Below, piece after piece: positions 1,119-8,546 of a DNA stretch of 46,850 nucleotides. Location: the NCBI GenBank assembly GCA_902787305.1, contig CADAFS010000008.1:1-46850 (forward strand). Direction: 5' to 3'. The stretch's first letter is position 1. Every line of letters starts with the position of its first letter. Under the pieces are notes generated by a model. The model saw nothing but the letters and a program-made list of their open reading frames with translations, was not told the DNA's origin and did not search any database. Source of the stretch: an uncultured Pseudomonadota bacterium (lineage in GTDB: Bacteria > Pseudomonadota > Alphaproteobacteria > Rs-D84). The translations under genes and the position numbers were made by a program.

Positions 1119-2190
1119 TTACTTGCGGCGCAATAATGCCAACATAAATTCGTCCAAGTCACCGTCCAACACGGCGTCTGAATCGGTGTTTTCGGTACCG
1201 GTTCTGACATCTTTGACCAAACGATATGGATACAGGACATAGTTTCGAATCTGACTGCCCCACTCGATTTTTTTCTGTGCGGCCTTGGCGGCGTCTTCTT
1301 CGGCGGCGCGTTTTTCCATTTCCAATTCATACAAACGCGAACGCAAGATTTTCATTGCCATATCTTTATTCTGAAATTGACTGCGTTCATTTTGGCACGT
1401 GACAACGATTCCGGTTGGAATATGGGTAATGCGGACGGCACTGTCGGTTTTATTCACGTGTTGCCCGCCCGCGCCCGAAGAACGATATGTGTCAATGCGC
1501 AGGTCTTTTTCATTTATTTCGATATTGATTGTGTCGTCGATATCCGGCCATACGTCAACGGATGCAAAACTTGTTTGGCGTTTGCCGTTCGCATTAAACG
1601 GCGATATGCGCACCAATCGATGCACACCGATTTCATTACGCAGCCACCCATACGCGCGTTCACCGATTATTCGCATGGTCATACTTTTAATTCCGGCGGT
1701 GTCACCTTCGTGTTCTTCGATTATTTCCACCGCAAATCCATGTCGTTCGGCCCAACGCGTGTACATACGCGCCAACATTTGCGCCCAATCTTGGGCTTCG
1801 GTTCCGCCGGCGCCGGCCTGGATAAACAAAAACGCGTTGTTGCCGTCCGCGGGCCCATTAAACAATGTCACATACGCCGCACGGCGGGCGTCATCCGCCA
1901 ATTTTTCAATTGCCGCGATTACATCCGCATCATCGGGCGCAATCGCGTACAATTCGCGCAGGTTTTCAAATTCCGCATCCATATCCGCTATCATTCTCAG
2001 GTCGCGTTCAGCCACGGACTTTTTCTGCATAATCGCGCGCGCCACATCCGGGTCGTTCCATAAATCTGGCGAAAGTGATTGTTTGGTTAAATCGTCGATT
2101 TGCGTCCTGAGTTTATCCGGGTCAAAGAAACCCCCGAATATTATTCAGGTTATCGGAAATTTCACTAAAGATTTCATTTGCCAAAAACAT
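1119..2190 (-). CDS. prfB: Peptide chain release factor 2, with programmed +1 frameshift
   Basis: RF2 recognises UGA and UAA and triggers peptide release. The gene is in two frames. A 22-codon first frame starts at ATG 2190 and ends at an in-frame TGA (2124-2122). The second frame runs on from GAC at 2123. The junction reads CGG GGG TTT CTT TGA C, matching the classic RF2 slip site (Shine-Dalgarno-like G-run, CTT slip codon, TGA, C). The joined product is 356 residues; E. coli RF2 has 365. The codon-recognition tripeptide SPF is at about residues 196-198 and the catalytic GGQ at 241-243. Skipping the T at 2124 gives ...GFLDPDKL, matching the RF2 family there. RF2 autoregulates through this site: low RF2 favours the shift. 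There is no Shine-Dalgarno before ATG 2190, and a -10 box ends 6 nt upstream, so the mRNA may be leaderless. Confidence 0.97.
2120..2136 (-). promoter_or_regulatory. prfB programmed +1 frameshift site
   Basis: On the minus strand the sequence CGGGGGTTTCTTTGAC contains a G-rich internal Shine-Dalgarno, the CTT slip codon and a TGA stop followed by C. This is the known architecture for autoregulated RF2 frameshifting. The E. coli version is AGGGGGTATCTTTGAC. Confidence 0.95.
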
Positions 2191-2196
2191 AGGACT

Positions 2197-2224
2197 ATCA
2201 TAGCAATCAAAATTCCAAAATCAA
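2197..2224 (-). promoter_or_regulatory. Putative prfB promoter (leaderless)
   Basis: TTGATT (2224-2219) and TATGAT (2202-2197) are separated by 16 nt. Only 6 nt separate the -10 box from the ATG at 2190, so transcription would begin at or next to the start codon. Confidence 0.5.
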
Positions 2225-2233
2225 CAATAAATC

Positions 2234-2262
2234 TTGCGAGCGCCCTAAAATTATGATAAAAT
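2234..2262 (+). promoter_or_regulatory. Putative promoter of the 2289 gene
   Basis: TTGCGA (2234-2239) and TAAAAT (2257-2262) have a 17-nt spacer. They sit 27 nt before the ATG, and a strong G-rich Shine-Dalgarno (around 2275-2282) follows. Diverges from the prfB promoter. Confidence 0.55.
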
Positions 2263-2288
2263 AAGCGACAGATAGGGGGGAGAGTTTC

Positions 2289-3533
2289 ATGAAACATTTC
2301 TTTCGTATGACAGGCGTTGTGTGTGCATGCATGATTGGTGCGGGCGCGTATGGCATTTCGGCGGGAACAACCGCGACAAATATGGCGCGTGGCGTGAATA
2401 TGGGCACGGTTGGCAACACAAACCTGCGCGGGAACCAAGGTTTGGCGAATGCATATAAAACCAATCAGCGCAATACTTACTATATGGTAAATGTGCCAGA
2501 TGTCGATAGTGCGTGTCGTATAAAGATTGATAAATGCCTGTCCGATTATTGTGGCGATATTACCGTTGTCCCAGGCCAGGTATCGGGCCGCTGTGCATAC
2601 GCAACAGAAAGCGAATTGTATAATTATGTTCTGCTTTGCCTGCGTAATGACGTGTCGGTGTTATTGCCGAACTATGCGACGAATACGAAAATGGGTGTTG
2701 GTGGTGTAAATACCGCGGCGCACCTTTGCCCGTCATATGTACAACAAGAATTAATGGCGTGGCTGGCCATGTCAAACATGGCGAACGAATTGACCAAGGC
2801 GCATTCACCACAGTGCCTGCAGCGGCGCCAGGAATTAGAGGCCGCAATGTCTTGCCATGCGGTCGCATTGGCGTATGGAAACGAAACATCAAGTATGCTT
2901 ATGTCGCAACTTAGTGATTTTTGCGGTGCGGGCGTGCCGGGTGGATCGGCCGAAATGGTGTCACGATTCGCAAATGCCGGCAACATTGGTGCAAACATTT
3001 GGGGATGGGCGGAAAAAATTGTAACGCTTGATTTGAATAAAAAGGCTTCCGATTGGGAAAACGCGGTTGATGCGGTTTTGGCGTCCTATACAAATCGTAT
3101 GAATTTGGCGTGCGGTGAAAATATGCAACTGAATTTGGCGGCGCATGAAACCGGAAATTCAAATGCGGCACTGCAAACCGCGGCGGCGATTGCGGCGGGC
3201 GTTGCATTTCCCGATGCACAAAAAAAAACTAATGCAATAGATAAAAACGCCGGCAAATACGGAATTTTTTTCGAAGTTAAATCTAATACCGAAGTTTATG
3301 ATTATGCGACCGCAAATCAGGTTATTCAGGCGGGGCTTTCAAATTCGCCCCTTACCCAAAATGCGTTTTTAACATCGGCGCAAATGGATAACATGCAAAA
3401 TGCGTATAAGTACGGAACCAAGGTTTTTATCCTGCGCGATAGCACGCGTTGCTTTATGGTGCCGGTTGCCGACACAACCAGTGCCGAACGTTCGATGGTC
3501 GCGCAACAATTTGCAAATTGCATTTATAAGTAG
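2289..3533 (+). CDS. Secreted Cys-rich protein of unknown function
   Basis: 414 residues; I do not recognise a named family. It begins with a signal-like segment (charged start, hydrophobic residues about 7-22). Cysteines at about 76, 83, 88 and 102 form a C-x6-C-x4-C-x13-C module ending in GRC. A matching module occurs near residues 292-314 of the 1458-residue protein at 19182, so the two share a domain. The middle is Ala/Met/Asn-rich and looks helical. Cysteine pairs plus an export signal suggest disulphides in the periplasm or at the surface (inference). It has its own promoter and a strong GGGGGGAGAG ribosome site. A bidirectional terminator follows. Confidence 0.8.
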   Translation: MKHFFRMTGVVCACMIGAGAYGISAGTTATNMARGVNMGTVGNTNLRGNQGLANAYKTNQRNTYYMVNVPDVDSACRIKIDKCLSDYCGDITVVPGQVSGRCAYATESELYNYVLLCLRNDVSVLLPNYATNTKMGVGGVNTAAHLCPSYVQQELMAWLAMSNMANELTKAHSPQCLQRRQELEAAMSCHAVALAYGNETSSMLMSQLSDFCGAGVPGGSAEMVSRFANAGNIGANIWGWAEKIVTLDLNKKASDWENAVDAVLASYTNRMNLACGENMQLNLAAHETGNSNAALQTAAAIAAGVAFPDAQKKTNAIDKNAGKYGIFFEVKSNTEVYDYATANQVIQAGLSNSPLTQNAFLTSAQMDNMQNAYKYGTKVFILRDSTRCFMVPVADTTSAERSMVAQQFANCIYK

Positions 3534-3557
3534 CGTTCAATGGTTGCCAATACTAAA

Positions 3558-3590
3558 AAATCCCCGCGACTGCGGGGATTTCTTTTATTT
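3558..3590. terminator. Bidirectional rho-independent terminator
   Basis: Ten-base-pair stem AAATCCCCGC/GCGGGGATTT with a GACT loop (3558-3581). T-rich tracts follow on both strands; the minus-strand T-run is stronger. It serves the convergent 2289 gene and the cold-shock gene. Confidence 0.85.
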
Positions 3591-3917
3591 CTTCCAGAAA
3601 GCAAATCCGGAATGTTTTTCTTCTTTTTTGCTTTCTTCGCGGGCGCGGCGTCTTTCGGCACGCCGTTCCTGAAATCGCTTTGCAGATTCTTCGTCGCGTT
3701 GAACAAGTTTTAATGTTGTGACCGACAATTTGCCATTACGAACTTCTTCATCAAATTCAACGATATCGCCTTCGTTCAAATATCGCAAATCCGCATTTTT
3801 AAGTGAACTTGAATGAACAAATACATCATCCGTGTTGCCGTCCGCATTCGGTGTATCCGGCGCAATAAAGCCATAACACTTTTTGCCGTTGTACCATTTT
3901 ACTTTACCTTGGCGCAT
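3585..3917 (-). CDS. Cold-shock domain protein with basic C-terminal tail
   Basis: 110 residues. The N-terminal 70 residues are a cold-shock (OB-fold) domain: 'GKVKWYN' strand, RNP1-like 'KCYGFI' and RNP2-like 'DVFVHSS'. Such proteins bind single-stranded RNA/DNA and melt RNA structure. The last 35 residues (after 'LVQRDEES') are very rich in Arg, Lys and Glu, unlike the 67-70-residue classical CspA, and probably add non-specific RNA affinity. A good Shine-Dalgarno (AAAGGA) precedes ATG 3917. The 124-nt gap upstream could hold a structured leader, but I see no clear conserved element there. Confidence 0.92.
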   Translation of the reverse strand: MRQGKVKWYNGKKCYGFIAPDTPNADGNTDDVFVHSSSLKNADLRYLNEGDIVEFDEEVRNGKLSVTTLKLVQRDEESAKRFQERRAERRRAREESKKEEKHSGFAFWKK

Positions 3918-4041: not shown

Positions 4042-5460
4042 TTACATATTGCGTTCGGAATTATAATATCGCGAAACTTCATTCATAATAAAATTGAATA
4101 ACCGCACCGCAAGTGTATCACCATCAACCCCGCATCCGGCACGCGTATACGGCATTGCCGACACCAAAACAAATCGTGCCATAAAACGGAAAATTGCAAT
4201 CTCTTGGGTTTTATCCAACTTTGATGAAGAATTTGTCACAACAAAAATTTCATTTTTCACCGCGGCATCCAATTTGTTCATAATTTTTTCAACAATCGAA
4301 CTTGGGTAATAAAGTTTGCATTCGCGCGGGAACCCTTCAAACAATGATACATCGTTACCACGGCTGTATAAAATATTCCAACCGACGCGTTCAAGTAAAT
4401 CGTCCAAACACCGACATATCATTTTATTATATTGTTCGATTCCGCTTTCCATCATTTCGGCGGCCTCACTTTCGATGGCGGCATTTTCCATATCTGGATT
4501 TTCGCGCAATGTGGCATAGTAATCATGTGTGCGTCGTTCAAATTCAAAGAATGTCCGAACCTGACATATAATTTCCATCGGAATAACATTATCCGCCGTG
4601 CCGATATTCACAATAACCTTGGAATCGCGATAGTTGCGCGGGTTTGTAATATCATAAAACTTGTCACGCATCGATATAATTCGTTCCGGCATCATATCGC
4701 GCAGTCGTTCGATAAAAGTTCGCGCCTGGGGTATTAAATCGAACAAGCACTTTACGCGCCACACATCGTTCAAATGCAAGTATGGTTTTTTAACCTTGTC
4801 TAATTCGCGAACAAGTTTTACAACCAAACTATCCTCGCTTTGTCCGATGATGGATAAAACTTCTTCGGCGGCGTTGGTCACATAATGTGCGGCAAAATTT
4901 TTTCGAATTTGTTGTTCGATTTTTTTAATCTGTTTATCGCGCCCCATTTCCACGAACACACGCGTGACCGCCGAAATAACATCATTGATAAAGAACTGAT
5001 AGTATTTCCCGGTCACCTTGTCAATCGCGCGTTCAACATTTTTCTGCGCGGCAACAATTACCGTCACAATCGATGACACCGACAAATCAATCTTGTGTGA
5101 GGCGCAGCACGTAAAGAACTGATTCCGCATCGGGTCCGCATCTAATCTATGATTGACTAAATAACAACAGAGCGGATTTATATCTGCAATCTTTATTGGT
5201 TTGTCCACCGACAAATCTGTCGCCGGGTCATATTCGGTCACGGCGGTTTTTGGTGCACCAAAGCATTTGCCTAAAACATGGAATACATCGCGATAGCAAT
5301 CCATACCGTCAGAATAAAGCCGGCGTAAATACTGCGCTGTTTCATCGTCTATGCGTCCCGCATCGCGCGCATTATCAATAAACGCGATGTTGTGCCGATC
5401 GCGGTCGGCGGTAAGAATATCAACATCTAATGCGGTCGTTTTTACCATGCGCGCGTCCAT
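4042..5460 (-). CDS. Unknown protein with a degenerate RelA/SpoT-like region
   Basis: 472 residues, third gene of the lysK-lysS operon; its ATG overlaps the lysS stop (TAATG), so translation is probably coupled. Residues about 215-320 resemble the RelA/SpoT (p)ppGpp synthetase fold: 'LNDVWRVKCLF' (compare D-x-x-x-x-R of the family), 'NPRNYRD' (compare NGYRSLH) and 'CQVRTFFEFERRTHDYY' (compare E-x-Q-x-R-T...H..Y). The usual His after YRSL is Lys, and the catalytic Glu two positions before Gln is Ile, unless Glu296 substitutes. So alarmone synthesis is doubtful. No HD hydrolase or TGS domain is evident. The remainder is mostly helical with no signal peptide; the protein is likely cytosolic. The similarity is by eye only. 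Confidence 0.6.
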   Translation of the reverse strand: MDARMVKTTALDVDILTADRDRHNIAFIDNARDAGRIDDETAQYLRRLYSDGMDCYRDVFHVLGKCFGAPKTAVTEYDPATDLSVDKPIKIADINPLCCYLVNHRLDADPMRNQFFTCCASHKIDLSVSSIVTVIVAAQKNVERAIDKVTGKYYQFFINDVISAVTRVFVEMGRDKQIKKIEQQIRKNFAAHYVTNAAEEVLSIIGQSEDSLVVKLVRELDKVKKPYLHLNDVWRVKCLFDLIPQARTFIERLRDMMPERIISMRDKFYDITNPRNYRDSKVIVNIGTADNVIPMEIICQVRTFFEFERRTHDYYATLRENPDMENAAIESEAAEMMESGIEQYNKMICRCLDDLLERVGWNILYSRGNDVSLFEGFPRECKLYYPSSIVEKIMNKLDAAVKNEIFVVTNSSSKLDKTQEIAIFRFMARFVLVSAMPYTRAGCGVDGDTLAVRLFNFIMNEVSRYYNSERNM

Positions 5461-6926
5461 TACTTCATTATCGGGAACAAAATAACATCGCGTGCGGTCG
5501 GTTGGTCAAACACAATCATGGCCAATCTGTCGATGCCCATACCCACACCGGAAATTGGCGGAAATCCGTGTTCCATCGCGCGCACAAAGTCGTTGTCGGG
5601 GTTAAATGCTTCTTCTTCGCCACCTTCGATACTTTTCGCCTGTTCCTCAAAGGCCTTGGCCTGTTGTATTGGATTCACCAATTCGGAATAGCCCTTGCAC
5701 AGTTCGCCGCCCGCCACCAATAATTGATACATATCAAGGCGCCGGTCATCATCGTTGTTATGCCGCGCAAGTGGCACCATATAAGTTGGATAGTTATAAA
5801 GGAACGTCGGTTGAACAATACTGCCACGGATTTTCCGCTTGTACACATAGTCAACCAATGTCGCAAGTGATTTCAAATCTTCCAATTCGGACATCGGGAA
5901 CATACCCATATCAACCAATTTTTGACGCAACACATCAACATCTTCAAAGTCCAAAATGTTGCACCCGAACAGTTCGTTCATCTTTGCGGTGTAATCCATC
6001 ATATCATACTTGCTAAAATCAAGTTTGGTTCCTTGGAATTCAATCTGTAATGTTCCGCGTGCGCGCATTATCAATTCTTGAACCATTTGCCATGTGAAAT
6101 CAATGTTGCGCTTGTAATCCCAATATGCCGCATACCATTCAATCATGGTGAATTCTTGCAAGTGCATCGCATCCATACCTTCGTTGCGGAAATCCTTGGC
6201 CACTTCGTACACACGGTCAAACCCCGCGCCAATCGCCATCTTTAGGAAAAGTTCCGGTGAAATACGCAATTGGAAATCCGTGTTTAACGCGTTGTGGTGT
6301 GTGACGAACGGCCGTGCCGCCGCACCCGATGCGATATTTTGCATAATCGGTGTTTCAATTTCCAAGAATCCGTGATTATTCATAAATTCGCGCAAATGTT
6401 GTGTCATTTTGAATCGCCCAAGCAACGCGTTGCGCGATTCCGGATTTGAAACAATATCCAAATAGCGTTGACGATATCGCGTTTCCATATCGGTAAGCCC
6501 ATGGAACTTTTCCGGCAACGGCCGTAACGCCTTGGCAAGTATTTCGTAATTTGCAACGCGCACGGTCAATTCGCCGGCGGTTGTGTGATATAATTTTCCG
6601 GTGATTCCAATAAAGTCGCCCAAATCAACATTGGCCTTCATGAATTTATAGTTTTCTTCGCCCAATTCTTCGCGCGACATAGAAAATTGAATTTCGCCAT
6701 TTATATCATAAATGCGCCCGAACATCAGTTTTCCCATCCAACGCAACGCCGTGACGCGACCACAAAGCCGAACATCCGTATCGTCGGGTAATTCACGCGC
6801 ATCGGCAATTGTGTGCGTGCGATCAAATTTATCCTTCCACACAACACCATCGCGTGCGCGAATGTTTTCTGCCTTTTGCAGGCGTGCGGTAAGTTCATTT
6901 GTAGACATCGTTTCATTTTCTGACAT
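5460..6926 (-). CDS. lysS: Lysyl-tRNA synthetase, class II
   Basis: 488 residues, full length for the class II enzyme that charges tRNA-Lys. The N-terminal OB-fold anticodon domain (about residues 45-150) has 'VRLCGRVTALRWMGKL'. The catalytic core has 'METRYRQRYLD' (motif 1 region), 'FRNEGMDAMHLQEFTMIEW' (motif 2) and 'GVGMGIDRLAMIV' (motif 3). Intact motifs argue for an active synthetase, not an EpmA/PoxA paralogue, which lacks the OB domain. It begins 1 nt after the lysK stop (TAAAATG), with the lysK end providing the weak ribosome site. A class I enzyme of the same specificity lies immediately upstream, which is highly unusual. Confidence 0.96.
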   Translation of the reverse strand: MSENETMSTNELTARLQKAENIRARDGVVWKDKFDRTHTIADARELPDDTDVRLCGRVTALRWMGKLMFGRIYDINGEIQFSMSREELGEENYKFMKANVDLGDFIGITGKLYHTTAGELTVRVANYEILAKALRPLPEKFHGLTDMETRYRQRYLDIVSNPESRNALLGRFKMTQHLREFMNNHGFLEIETPIMQNIASGAAARPFVTHHNALNTDFQLRISPELFLKMAIGAGFDRVYEVAKDFRNEGMDAMHLQEFTMIEWYAAYWDYKRNIDFTWQMVQELIMRARGTLQIEFQGTKLDFSKYDMMDYTAKMNELFGCNILDFEDVDVLRQKLVDMGMFPMSELEDLKSLATLVDYVYKRKIRGSIVQPTFLYNYPTYMVPLARHNNDDDRRLDMYQLLVAGGELCKGYSELVNPIQQAKAFEEQAKSIEGGEEEAFNPDNDFVRAMEHGFPPISGVGMGIDRLAMIVFDQPTARDVILFPIMK

Positions 6927-6927
6927 T

Positions 6928-8496
6928 TTATAGTACCCTTTTTATCATATCTATTGTTTTCTCTATACCGTAAATCATTATAAAATTTGGCAACCTTGGA
7001 CCACTTTCTTGTCCCAACAAAACATTATAGAACATTGTAAAGAAGTCGCGCAGTTTATCCACTGAATAATACTTTTTCCCAATATCATAACAATAGGTTT
7101 CTAATTCTTTTTCTATACCCGTTTTACCGACGAATTGCGCAAGTCCATTCATCAAATCCTGCAAAACAATCTTTTCTTGGTCGGTCGCATCACGATATTT
7201 CTTGTTTGGTTTAACAAAATCGTGATAATAATGAACCGCAGATTCCGCCATTTTGTTCAAATCAGGGCAATTCTGCGGATTTAATTCTGGGTTATACGCG
7301 GTTATGTATCCCCACATATCAGATATGCGTTCCGTGTTCGCGGCACTTGCTAAATTCAATAGCAGATTATACGATATTGGCATACGACCGGTCGGGACAC
7401 CATGTTCACGGTGAATATAAACCACCGGGTTGGTTAGTTTGGCGGTATCATCTTGTTTATCATAATTATTTAGGTGTTGATAGTATTCATCAACATTACG
7501 CGGGATAACATCAAAGTACAATTTTTTACTTGTTGTTGGTTTGTTATACATAAACAATGCCAAACTTTCTGGATTTCCGTATTTTAACCATTGTTCAATA
7601 CTAATACCATTGCCTTTTGTTTTAGATATTTTTTGTCCTTGTTCATCAACAAACAGTTGATAAGTTAAATTTTCTGGGGCGCGCCCACCAAGAATACGAA
7701 TAATATCCCCTGATAATTTATAGGAATCTGTTAAATCAGCACCGCACATTTCATAATCCACATCTAATGCCAACCAGCGCATCGCCCAATCTGCCTTCCA
7801 TTGTAATTTTGCCATGCCATTTAGCACAGACTGTTCAACGCGCGTGCCGTCGTCGTCTTCGAAAACAACAATTCCTTTTTCAGCATTGATTTCTAACATT
7901 GGAACTTGCAACACTTTACCTGTTTTTGGTGAAATCGGCATAATCGGACTGTATGTTTTTTGCCTTTCTTCGCGTAGTGTCGGCAACATAACCTTCATAA
8001 TTCTATCGTAATTCGCCAAAATTTTCATCAATGCTTCATTAAAAGCCCCAGATTTATACATTTCTGTGGAACTCATGAAATCATATTCAAATCCATAACT
8101 ATCCAAAAATTCACGCAACATTGCATTATTATGATCTGCAAAACTTTTATACTTACCAAAAGGATCAGGGACAGATGTCAACGGTAATCCTATATATTTT
8201 GCGGTTTCTTCTTGGTTTGGGATATTTGTCGGTACTTTACGTAATCCATCCATATCGTCAGAAAAGGCAATCAAACGTGTCGGAATATCAGAAATTTTGG
8301 TAAAGGCCCATCGAACCATACTGGTGCGGGCAACCTCGCCAAAAGTGCCAATGTGCGGCAACCCCGAAGGGCCATAACCTGTTTCAAACAAAACATAACC
8401 TTTGGCCGGGGTTTTGTTTCCGATATGTGCCAATATCTTGCGGGCTTCTTGGAATGGCCATGTGTTTATTTGACTATAATCTATATTTCCCGACAT
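6928..8496 (-). CDS. lysK: Lysyl-tRNA synthetase, class I
   Basis: 522 residues. This is the Rossmann-fold (class I) LysRS found in archaea, spirochaetes and most alphaproteobacteria. The HIGH-type signature is 'GLPHIGTFGE' (HIGT at residues 48-51) and the KMSKS-type is 'KISKTKGN' (289-296). The C-terminal part is the helical anticodon-binding cage. I chose ATG 8496 because AAAAGGGAAA lies 5-8 nt before it; the in-frame GTG at 8529 would lie within the T-run of the leader hairpin. The codon use is visibly more AT-rich than lysS. It leads the lysK-lysS-unknown operon and has an extended -10 promoter and a terminator-like hairpin in its leader. Confidence 0.95.
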   Translation of the reverse strand: MSGNIDYSQINTWPFQEARKILAHIGNKTPAKGYVLFETGYGPSGLPHIGTFGEVARTSMVRWAFTKISDIPTRLIAFSDDMDGLRKVPTNIPNQEETAKYIGLPLTSVPDPFGKYKSFADHNNAMLREFLDSYGFEYDFMSSTEMYKSGAFNEALMKILANYDRIMKVMLPTLREERQKTYSPIMPISPKTGKVLQVPMLEINAEKGIVVFEDDDGTRVEQSVLNGMAKLQWKADWAMRWLALDVDYEMCGADLTDSYKLSGDIIRILGGRAPENLTYQLFVDEQGQKISKTKGNGISIEQWLKYGNPESLALFMYNKPTTSKKLYFDVIPRNVDEYYQHLNNYDKQDDTAKLTNPVVYIHREHGVPTGRMPISYNLLLNLASAANTERISDMWGYITAYNPELNPQNCPDLNKMAESAVHYYHDFVKPNKKYRDATDQEKIVLQDLMNGLAQFVGKTGIEKELETYCYDIGKKYYSVDKLRDFFTMFYNVLLGQESGPRLPNFIMIYGIEKTIDMIKRVL

Positions 8497-8514
8497 AATG
8501 TTTCCCTTTTGGTT

Positions 8515-8546
8515 AAAAAAACGGGGCACCGTAAAAGTGCGCCCGT
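8515..8546 (-). promoter_or_regulatory. Terminator-like hairpin in the lysK leader (possible attenuator)
   Basis: Minus-strand ACGGGCGCAC...GTGCCCCGT forms a 9-bp stem with one bulged C and a 7-nt loop, followed directly by seven T. It lies between the lysK -10 box (8573-8568) and the lysK ribosome site. No minus-strand gene lies upstream that it could terminate, so it may control read-through into the operon. Confidence 0.6.

Follow-up and report, generated by a model that had tools for sequence, protein, structure and literature searches.

The locus raises the question of what is done by a protein that lies beside two lysyl-tRNA synthetase (LysRS) genes and that was first read as a RelA/SpoT-like protein with altered catalytic residues. 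RelA/SpoT-type (RSH) enzymes are familiar as regulators of stress or as toxins. The preliminary description of this DNA proposed a degenerate RelA/SpoT-like protein coupled to LysRS, which could sense uncharged tRNA-Lys or bind nucleotides instead of making ppGpp. The window analysed here is a stretch of 46,850 nucleotides, and the open reading frame in question, which we call Q, occupies positions 4042-5460 of the minus strand and encodes 472 amino acids, with boundaries exactly as described earlier. The source genome is 0.9 Mb in size and belongs to Candidatus Enterousia, a genus of tiny bacteria from the gut, which is placed in the order Rs-D84 (PMC12306168). Q was present in 33 of the 35 Candidatus Enterousia genomes of the first sample and in 163 of the 201 genomes of the order sample, where all of the matches listed belonged to one bacterial family, and it is conserved at 55-91% identity across 80 species. 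Q is a real, conserved gene; its features and those of its neighbours are collected in the table.

Table. Features of the Q gene, its protein and its neighbours (positions in the window)
Feature	Residues	Positions	Strand	Basis or remark
Cold-shock-domain protein, directly downstream of Q		3585..3917	-	KWYN-type CSD motif close to the Q end in 66 of 72 relatives
Q gene, predicted divergent RelA/SpoT-fold (SYNTH) protein, 472 aa		4042..5460	-	ORF; AF2 model and Foldseek; 33/35 genus genomes
C-terminal four-helix region	322-472	4045..4497	-	No fold match found
Putative catalytic-Glu position E296 and conserved H312	296-312	4525..4575	-	Bridge alignments
Putative acceptor-loop counterpart NPRNY277R278D279xK281 (Rel NPKxxGYxSxH)	273-281	4618..4644	-
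Putative catalytic Asp D232, DxxR arginine R235, K237	232-237	4750..4767	-	Alignment, invariance
Helical insert between K148 and D232 (75 residues)	150-225	4786..5013	-
Beta1 and putative donor-phosphate motif QK140xxxR144AxxK148	131-148	5017..5070	-	Invariant in 25 diverse members
N-terminal helices and beta-hairpin	1-112	5125..5460	-	Conserved also in outgroup homologs L187, L188
Class II lysyl-tRNA synthetase (LysRS2)		5460..6926	-	Stop overlaps Q start (TAATG)
Class I lysyl-tRNA synthetase (LysRS1, alphaproteobacterial type)		6928..8529	-	Next upstream of LysRS2

No model of Pfam or NCBIfam recognised Q, and the protein carries no Pfam domain. It stays under the curated cut-off of RelA_SpoT (PF04607), which among its relatives only the bridge protein L189 passes. 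Direct searches of Pfam, NCBIfam, PHROGs and the PDB sequences gave only matches at chance level, such as Baculo_DNA_bind with an E value of 0.075, and phage, plasmid and viral-contig collections contained no relatives of Q. A homolog of about 657 amino acids with a long basic N-terminal extension (L172, positions 1583-3553 of the minus strand in genome G203) lies directly downstream of an apparent tgt gene for tRNA-guanine transglycosylase.

We then examined the predicted structure. The AlphaFold2 model, built with 78 homologs, had a pLDDT of 81.8 and a pTM of 0.79, and showed the same beta-alpha-beta-beta-beta-alpha order as Rel and the small alarmone synthetases (SAS). When this model was searched with Foldseek, the best 30 PDB matches were all alarmone synthetases (SAS1, SAS2, RelP and SaEAS), and CapRel, Rel and FaRel2 ranked after them; 23 matches had E values of 1e-3 or lower, the best being 6fgk (E 1.2e-4, probability 1.00). 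VIA aligned 177 of 181 residues of 6fgk, the SAS2 of B. subtilis, with a Z score of 11.3 and an rmsd of 3.2, and 166 residues of Tas1 (6ox6) with a Z score of 9.5 and an rmsd of 2.8, and proteins from beyond the RSH group, the best of which were TdT and ribosome silencing factor, reached at most 7.8. These model comparisons support the presence of a SYNTH (nucleotidyltransferase-like) fold in Q, so that the Rel-like fold proposed earlier for this region was borne out; a predicted structure lacking any nucleotidyltransferase or Rel fold, which would have spoken against the proposal, was looked for and the fold was found instead. The C-terminal 150 residues, folded alone, gave a pLDDT of 81.5, and the region by itself produced no convincing fold match (best Foldseek E value 0.64; VIA Z score 4.0).

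The sequence connection to the RelA/SpoT superfamily runs through distant relatives. A profile of 25 diverse members of the Q family (A3) was searched against 385 genomes, and three distant alphaproteobacterial matches, L187, L188 and L189, were obtained. L187 and L188 share with Q both its N-terminal domain and its SYNTH motifs; in L189, a protein of 210 amino acids, the match covers the profile at Q residues 223-324. The three scored 32-39 bits against the family HMM, compared with a maximum of 6.0 among 300 shuffles of each; for L189 alone the score was 32 bits and the best of its 300 shuffles reached 3.1, with an E value of 6.4e-8 that refers to one genome of the 385 searched. L189 is itself a RelA_SpoT protein over the curated cut-off (37.7 bits), among PDB entries it matches Tas1 best, at 1e-12, and a profile of L189 with seven other proteins reached B. 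subtilis YwaC at 1.6e-6. Since the YwaC match vanished with a profile of nine proteins from which L189 was left out, the sequence link between Q and RelA_SpoT is transitive and rests on L189. By computation, Q can be traced as a homolog of RelA_SpoT (PF04607) through these bridge proteins, by transitive links. Canonical Rel proteins scored below zero against the family HMM, and HHalign of the Q family with canonical Rel was not significant for the whole or for the insert-trimmed profile, shuffled profiles scoring similarly.

Two SAS-like proteins of the same order (L165 and L166) are unlikely as the source of Q, with family HMM scores at or below zero. A weak PF04607 match with four stops in genome G180 (L110) was taken as chance, its tblastn matches including 0 of 30 Rel proteins. 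A divergent RelA/SpoT-like ORF of 295 amino acids with a YRD acceptor loop (L167, G036:C30:30000-32300, plus strand) scored 22 bits with PF04607, which is below the cut-off, and canonical Rel is also encoded in the same genome.

When the motifs of Rel and SAS proteins were mapped onto Q by alignment, GRxKxxxSxxxK corresponded to A138-Q-K140-xxx-R144-A-xx-K148, the catalytic Asp to D232 followed three residues later by R235 (DxxR), GYxSxH to N-Y277-R278-D279-x-K281, and ExQxRT to E296-I-I298-C-Q300-V-R302. The first of these motifs follows strand beta1 as IVTVIVaaQK140xxxR144AxxK148 and has the counterpart KSRERAMQK in Tas1. Down to 31% identity among the 25 members, K140, R144, K148, D232, R235, K237, R278, D279, K281, E296, R302 and H312 are invariant, and Y277, at the guanine-stacking position, is kept. 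Nine of the 13 positions that had been fixed beforehand from the Rel map are invariant in these members, compared with 45 of 472 positions overall (hypergeometric p 1.6e-7). The Arg of GRxK (A138) and the Gln of ExQ (I298) are replaced, and the GYxSxH loop is replaced by NYRDxK. An earlier motif map, in which GRGHEK (206-211) was taken as GRxK, was dropped, as this segment is missing in genus g26 and strand beta1 ends at residue 136. The helical insert that separates K148 from D232 is absent or much shortened in the g26 homologs (L170 and L171), which supports the motif order given here.

The position of the catalytic Glu needed closer inspection. The segment E296-H312 aligns without gaps to L187, L188 and L167 and to AEIQIRT of YwaC, and the spacing from the Glu to the conserved His is +16 in Q, L187, L188, L167 and YwaC; long Rel proteins have Val or Ile there. 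In L189, HMMER places a two-residue gap near E296 with low posterior values, and this one of the four bridges favours another register. We therefore assign, with a small doubt owing to the L189 gap, E296 to the probable catalytic-Glu position and D232 to that of the catalytic Asp. The preliminary description had placed Rel synthetase motifs at residues 215-320; the order it gave was right, and the domain starts earlier, with the donor-phosphate motif at 131-148. Its D-x4-R strand has the actual spacing D232-x2-R235-x-K237, and its Q-x-RT motif, in which QVRT was read as QIRT, was two residues off register, the bridge alignments placing E296 at the catalytic-Glu position.

Known structures give these residues a possible meaning. 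FaRel2 binds its donor ATP through R64, K66, S70, K74, R77, R95, E145 and Q147, and Mg through D90 (PMC11782079); of these residues, K66, K74, D90 and E145 would map to K140, K148, D232 and E296 of Q. R330 of Apk1/Tas1 and R124 of SaEAS are listed among the ATP-binding residues (PMC12691689). From the numbering of SaEAS, in which D121 was mutated in the crystallised variant, R124 would be the DxxR arginine and correspond to R235 of Q. Judging by these alignments, Q appears to keep the metal-binding acids and the phosphate-binding residues of the Tas1/Apk1-like branch and to differ in the adenine-contacting Arg and Gln and in the acceptor loop. The word degenerate, chosen earlier on the ground that catalytic residues were changed, does not suit a protein whose Asp/Glu metal pair and phosphate-binding Lys and Arg are invariant; as far as alignments can tell, the active site is better called rewritten.

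The association with LysRS was found to be genuine and much stronger than the preliminary description could see. The start codon of Q begins at the last base of the LysRS2 stop codon, a class II LysRS gene lies directly upstream of Q in nearly all of 80 sampled loci, and the distance from the LysRS stop to the Q start is 1-28 nt in 60 loci. In three loci (L026, L027 and L030) a class I LysRS lies upstream of Q and class II was not found in those genomes, and in another genus (L178) the upstream gene is an archaeal-type class I LysRS. The window itself has LysRS1 and LysRS2 in tandem (5460-8529, minus strand), both with full-length family matches, which is the only case among the 80 sampled relatives; close relatives have class I LysRS alone at the equivalent place, and the tandem looks like an intermediate of synthetase replacement. 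Q is not adjoined by LysRS in L028, a close relative, nor in genera g22, g26, g28 and g29. That Q stayed beside the synthetase at each change of LysRS type argues for a functional coupling; a gene that keeps its place while non-homologous LysRS genes succeed one another gives an unusually strong hint, at the genome level, of such a linkage.

On the other side of Q, a KWYN-type CSD motif occurs within 220 bp past the Q end in 66 of 72 relatives, giving a conserved LysRS-Q-Csp order, and a cold-shock-domain gene also follows Q in a genome where Q has no LysRS neighbour (G202). In the window, the cold-shock-domain protein ends in an Arg/Glu/Lys-rich tail. LysRS and this protein are the fixed neighbours, and no antitoxin- or immunity-like gene occupies a fixed place beside Q. 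Since Q is apparently co-transcribed with a cold-shock protein and with LysRS enzymes whose three types are unrelated or deeply diverged, a role tied to translation is suggested.

We also searched for canonical RelA/SpoT. PF04607 detected no Rel over its cut-off in the 35 genus genomes or in 27 other genomes of the family, and it found Rel in 16 of 18 sampled genomes from other families of the order; the family genomes are mostly metagenome assemblies, in which single absences are uncertain but the pattern across 62 genomes is not. The HD_4 hydrolase was not found in the source genome nor in any of the 22 family genomes of known kinship that were tested. Outgroup genomes with Q-like proteins (L187 and L188) also carry canonical Rel, and four family members (G191, G194, G199 and G204) are without both Q and Rel, so that Q is older than the loss of Rel and not merely a substitute for it. 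Two genomes of other families of the order (G038 and G040, 93-96% complete) have no detectable RelA_SpoT and no Q, which suggests an independent loss of Rel.

Among known systems, Q resembles the SYNTH domains of Tas1/Apk1 and SaEAS, which are (p)ppApp or (p)ppGpp synthetases, in its predicted fold, KxxxRAxxK and DxxR motifs and putative catalytic Asp and Glu (PMC12691689). Unlike them, it has no recognised export or secretion domain or immunity gene, is linked to LysRS, has Ile for the Gln of ExQ, and contains the 75-residue helical insert and extra N- and C-terminal regions. The small alarmone synthetases RelP and RelQ (6fgk, 6ewz and 5ded) are the best structural matches and share with Q the E-to-H spacing of +16 (YwaC), the catalytic Asp and Glu and the acceptor-loop Tyr, whereas Q is twice as long, lacks the GRxK Arg, the ExQ Gln and GYxSxH, and falls below the PF04607 cut-off. 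Long RSH proteins have the same SYNTH motif order and SYNTH-domain fold; Q differs in having no HD hydrolase, TGS or ACT match and in being missed by PF04607, and outgroups carry real Rel alongside Q-like proteins. The tRNA pyrophosphokinases CapRel and FaRel2 (9erv and 7ztb) are structurally similar, but no pZFD or antitoxin was found for Q and the equivalents of FaRel2 R64 and Q147 are missing.

Based on these observations, we somewhat favour the reading that Q is a DxxR-type SYNTH-domain ATP-dependent pyrophosphokinase with a changed acceptor and a link to translation, an activity predicted from its sequence. On this view Q has a highly divergent RelA/SpoT fold of the type with DxxR and KxxxRAxxK motifs, to which Tas1/Apk1 also belongs. 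Its gene would have been retained on the chromosome for housekeeping in a family without detectable canonical RelA/SpoT, and the protein would most likely act as an ATP-dependent 3'-pyrophosphokinase. In such an enzyme K140, R144, K148, R235 and K237 would hold ATP, D232 and E296 would hold the metal, and the Y277-R278-D279-K281 loop would seat an acceptor with a 3'-OH. In keeping with a role in translation, this acceptor may for instance be a nucleotide alarmone or the 3' end of a tRNA. Against this reading stand the missing curated family match, the non-significant HHalign result with Rel, the loss of the donor-ATP Arg and Gln and the rewritten acceptor loop, as do the L189 gap near E296, the dependence of the YwaC match on L189 and the loci in which LysRS does not adjoin Q. 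The main rival, which we consider rather doubtful, is a pseudoenzyme near the idea proposed at the outset, in which the SYNTH fold would serve to bind a nucleotide or the acceptor end of tRNA, and LysRS or translation would be regulated without catalysis. It accords with the three losses in the active site (the Arg of GRxK, the Gln of ExQ and the GYxSxH acceptor loop) and with the operon-like order with LysRS and the cold-shock protein. The hydrolase result also counts against catalysis, because toxicity would be expected of an unregulated alarmone synthetase and no HD_4 hydrolase was found in the sampled family genomes. However, the metal acids and all phosphate-binding Lys and Arg are invariant to 31% identity, which is beyond the usual need of binding alone, and R235 could serve as the arginine that binds ATP, the part played by R330/R124 in Apk1/SaEAS (PMC12691689).

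The remaining explanations appear less probable. It is unlikely that Q is a stringent factor dedicated to LysRS. Such a SYNTH enzyme would read or modify tRNA-Lys, or would respond to lysyl-tRNA charging by making an alarmone, and it would be the family's only alarmone-type enzyme to have survived the loss of RelA/SpoT. We give slightly less credence to the idea that, once canonical Rel was lost, the stringent response passed to Q as a (p)ppGpp synthetase: the distribution of Rel, not found in the 62 family genomes but detected in most genomes sampled from the order's other families, and the retained Tyr277 are in its favour, but L187 and L188 coexist with canonical Rel, so that Q did not arise as a replacement, the four family members noted above lack both proteins, the acceptor loop differs and no alarmone hydrolase was found in the family. 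It is very improbable that Q is a toxSAS toxin, whether from a toxin-antitoxin, a defence or a secretion system; although Tas1 is the nearest characterised sequence relative via the bridge and CapRel and FaRel2 are among the structural matches, Q is near-universal in its genus, keeps a conserved order with the essential LysRS, has no fixed antitoxin- or immunity-like partner and has no match in the plasmid and phage collections. As a conserved chromosomal RSH relative with an altered active site, set in an operon-like order with tRNA charging in organisms that lack detectable RelA/SpoT, Q would widen both the chemistry and the roles known for the superfamily, and it could reveal a way in which translation is coupled to nutrient state in reduced genomes.

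Elsewhere in the window, the release factor 2 gene (1119-2045, minus strand) has a typical programmed frameshift site upstream at 2100-2150 on the same strand, GGGGGTTTCTTTGAC, and therefore its true start lies in another frame.
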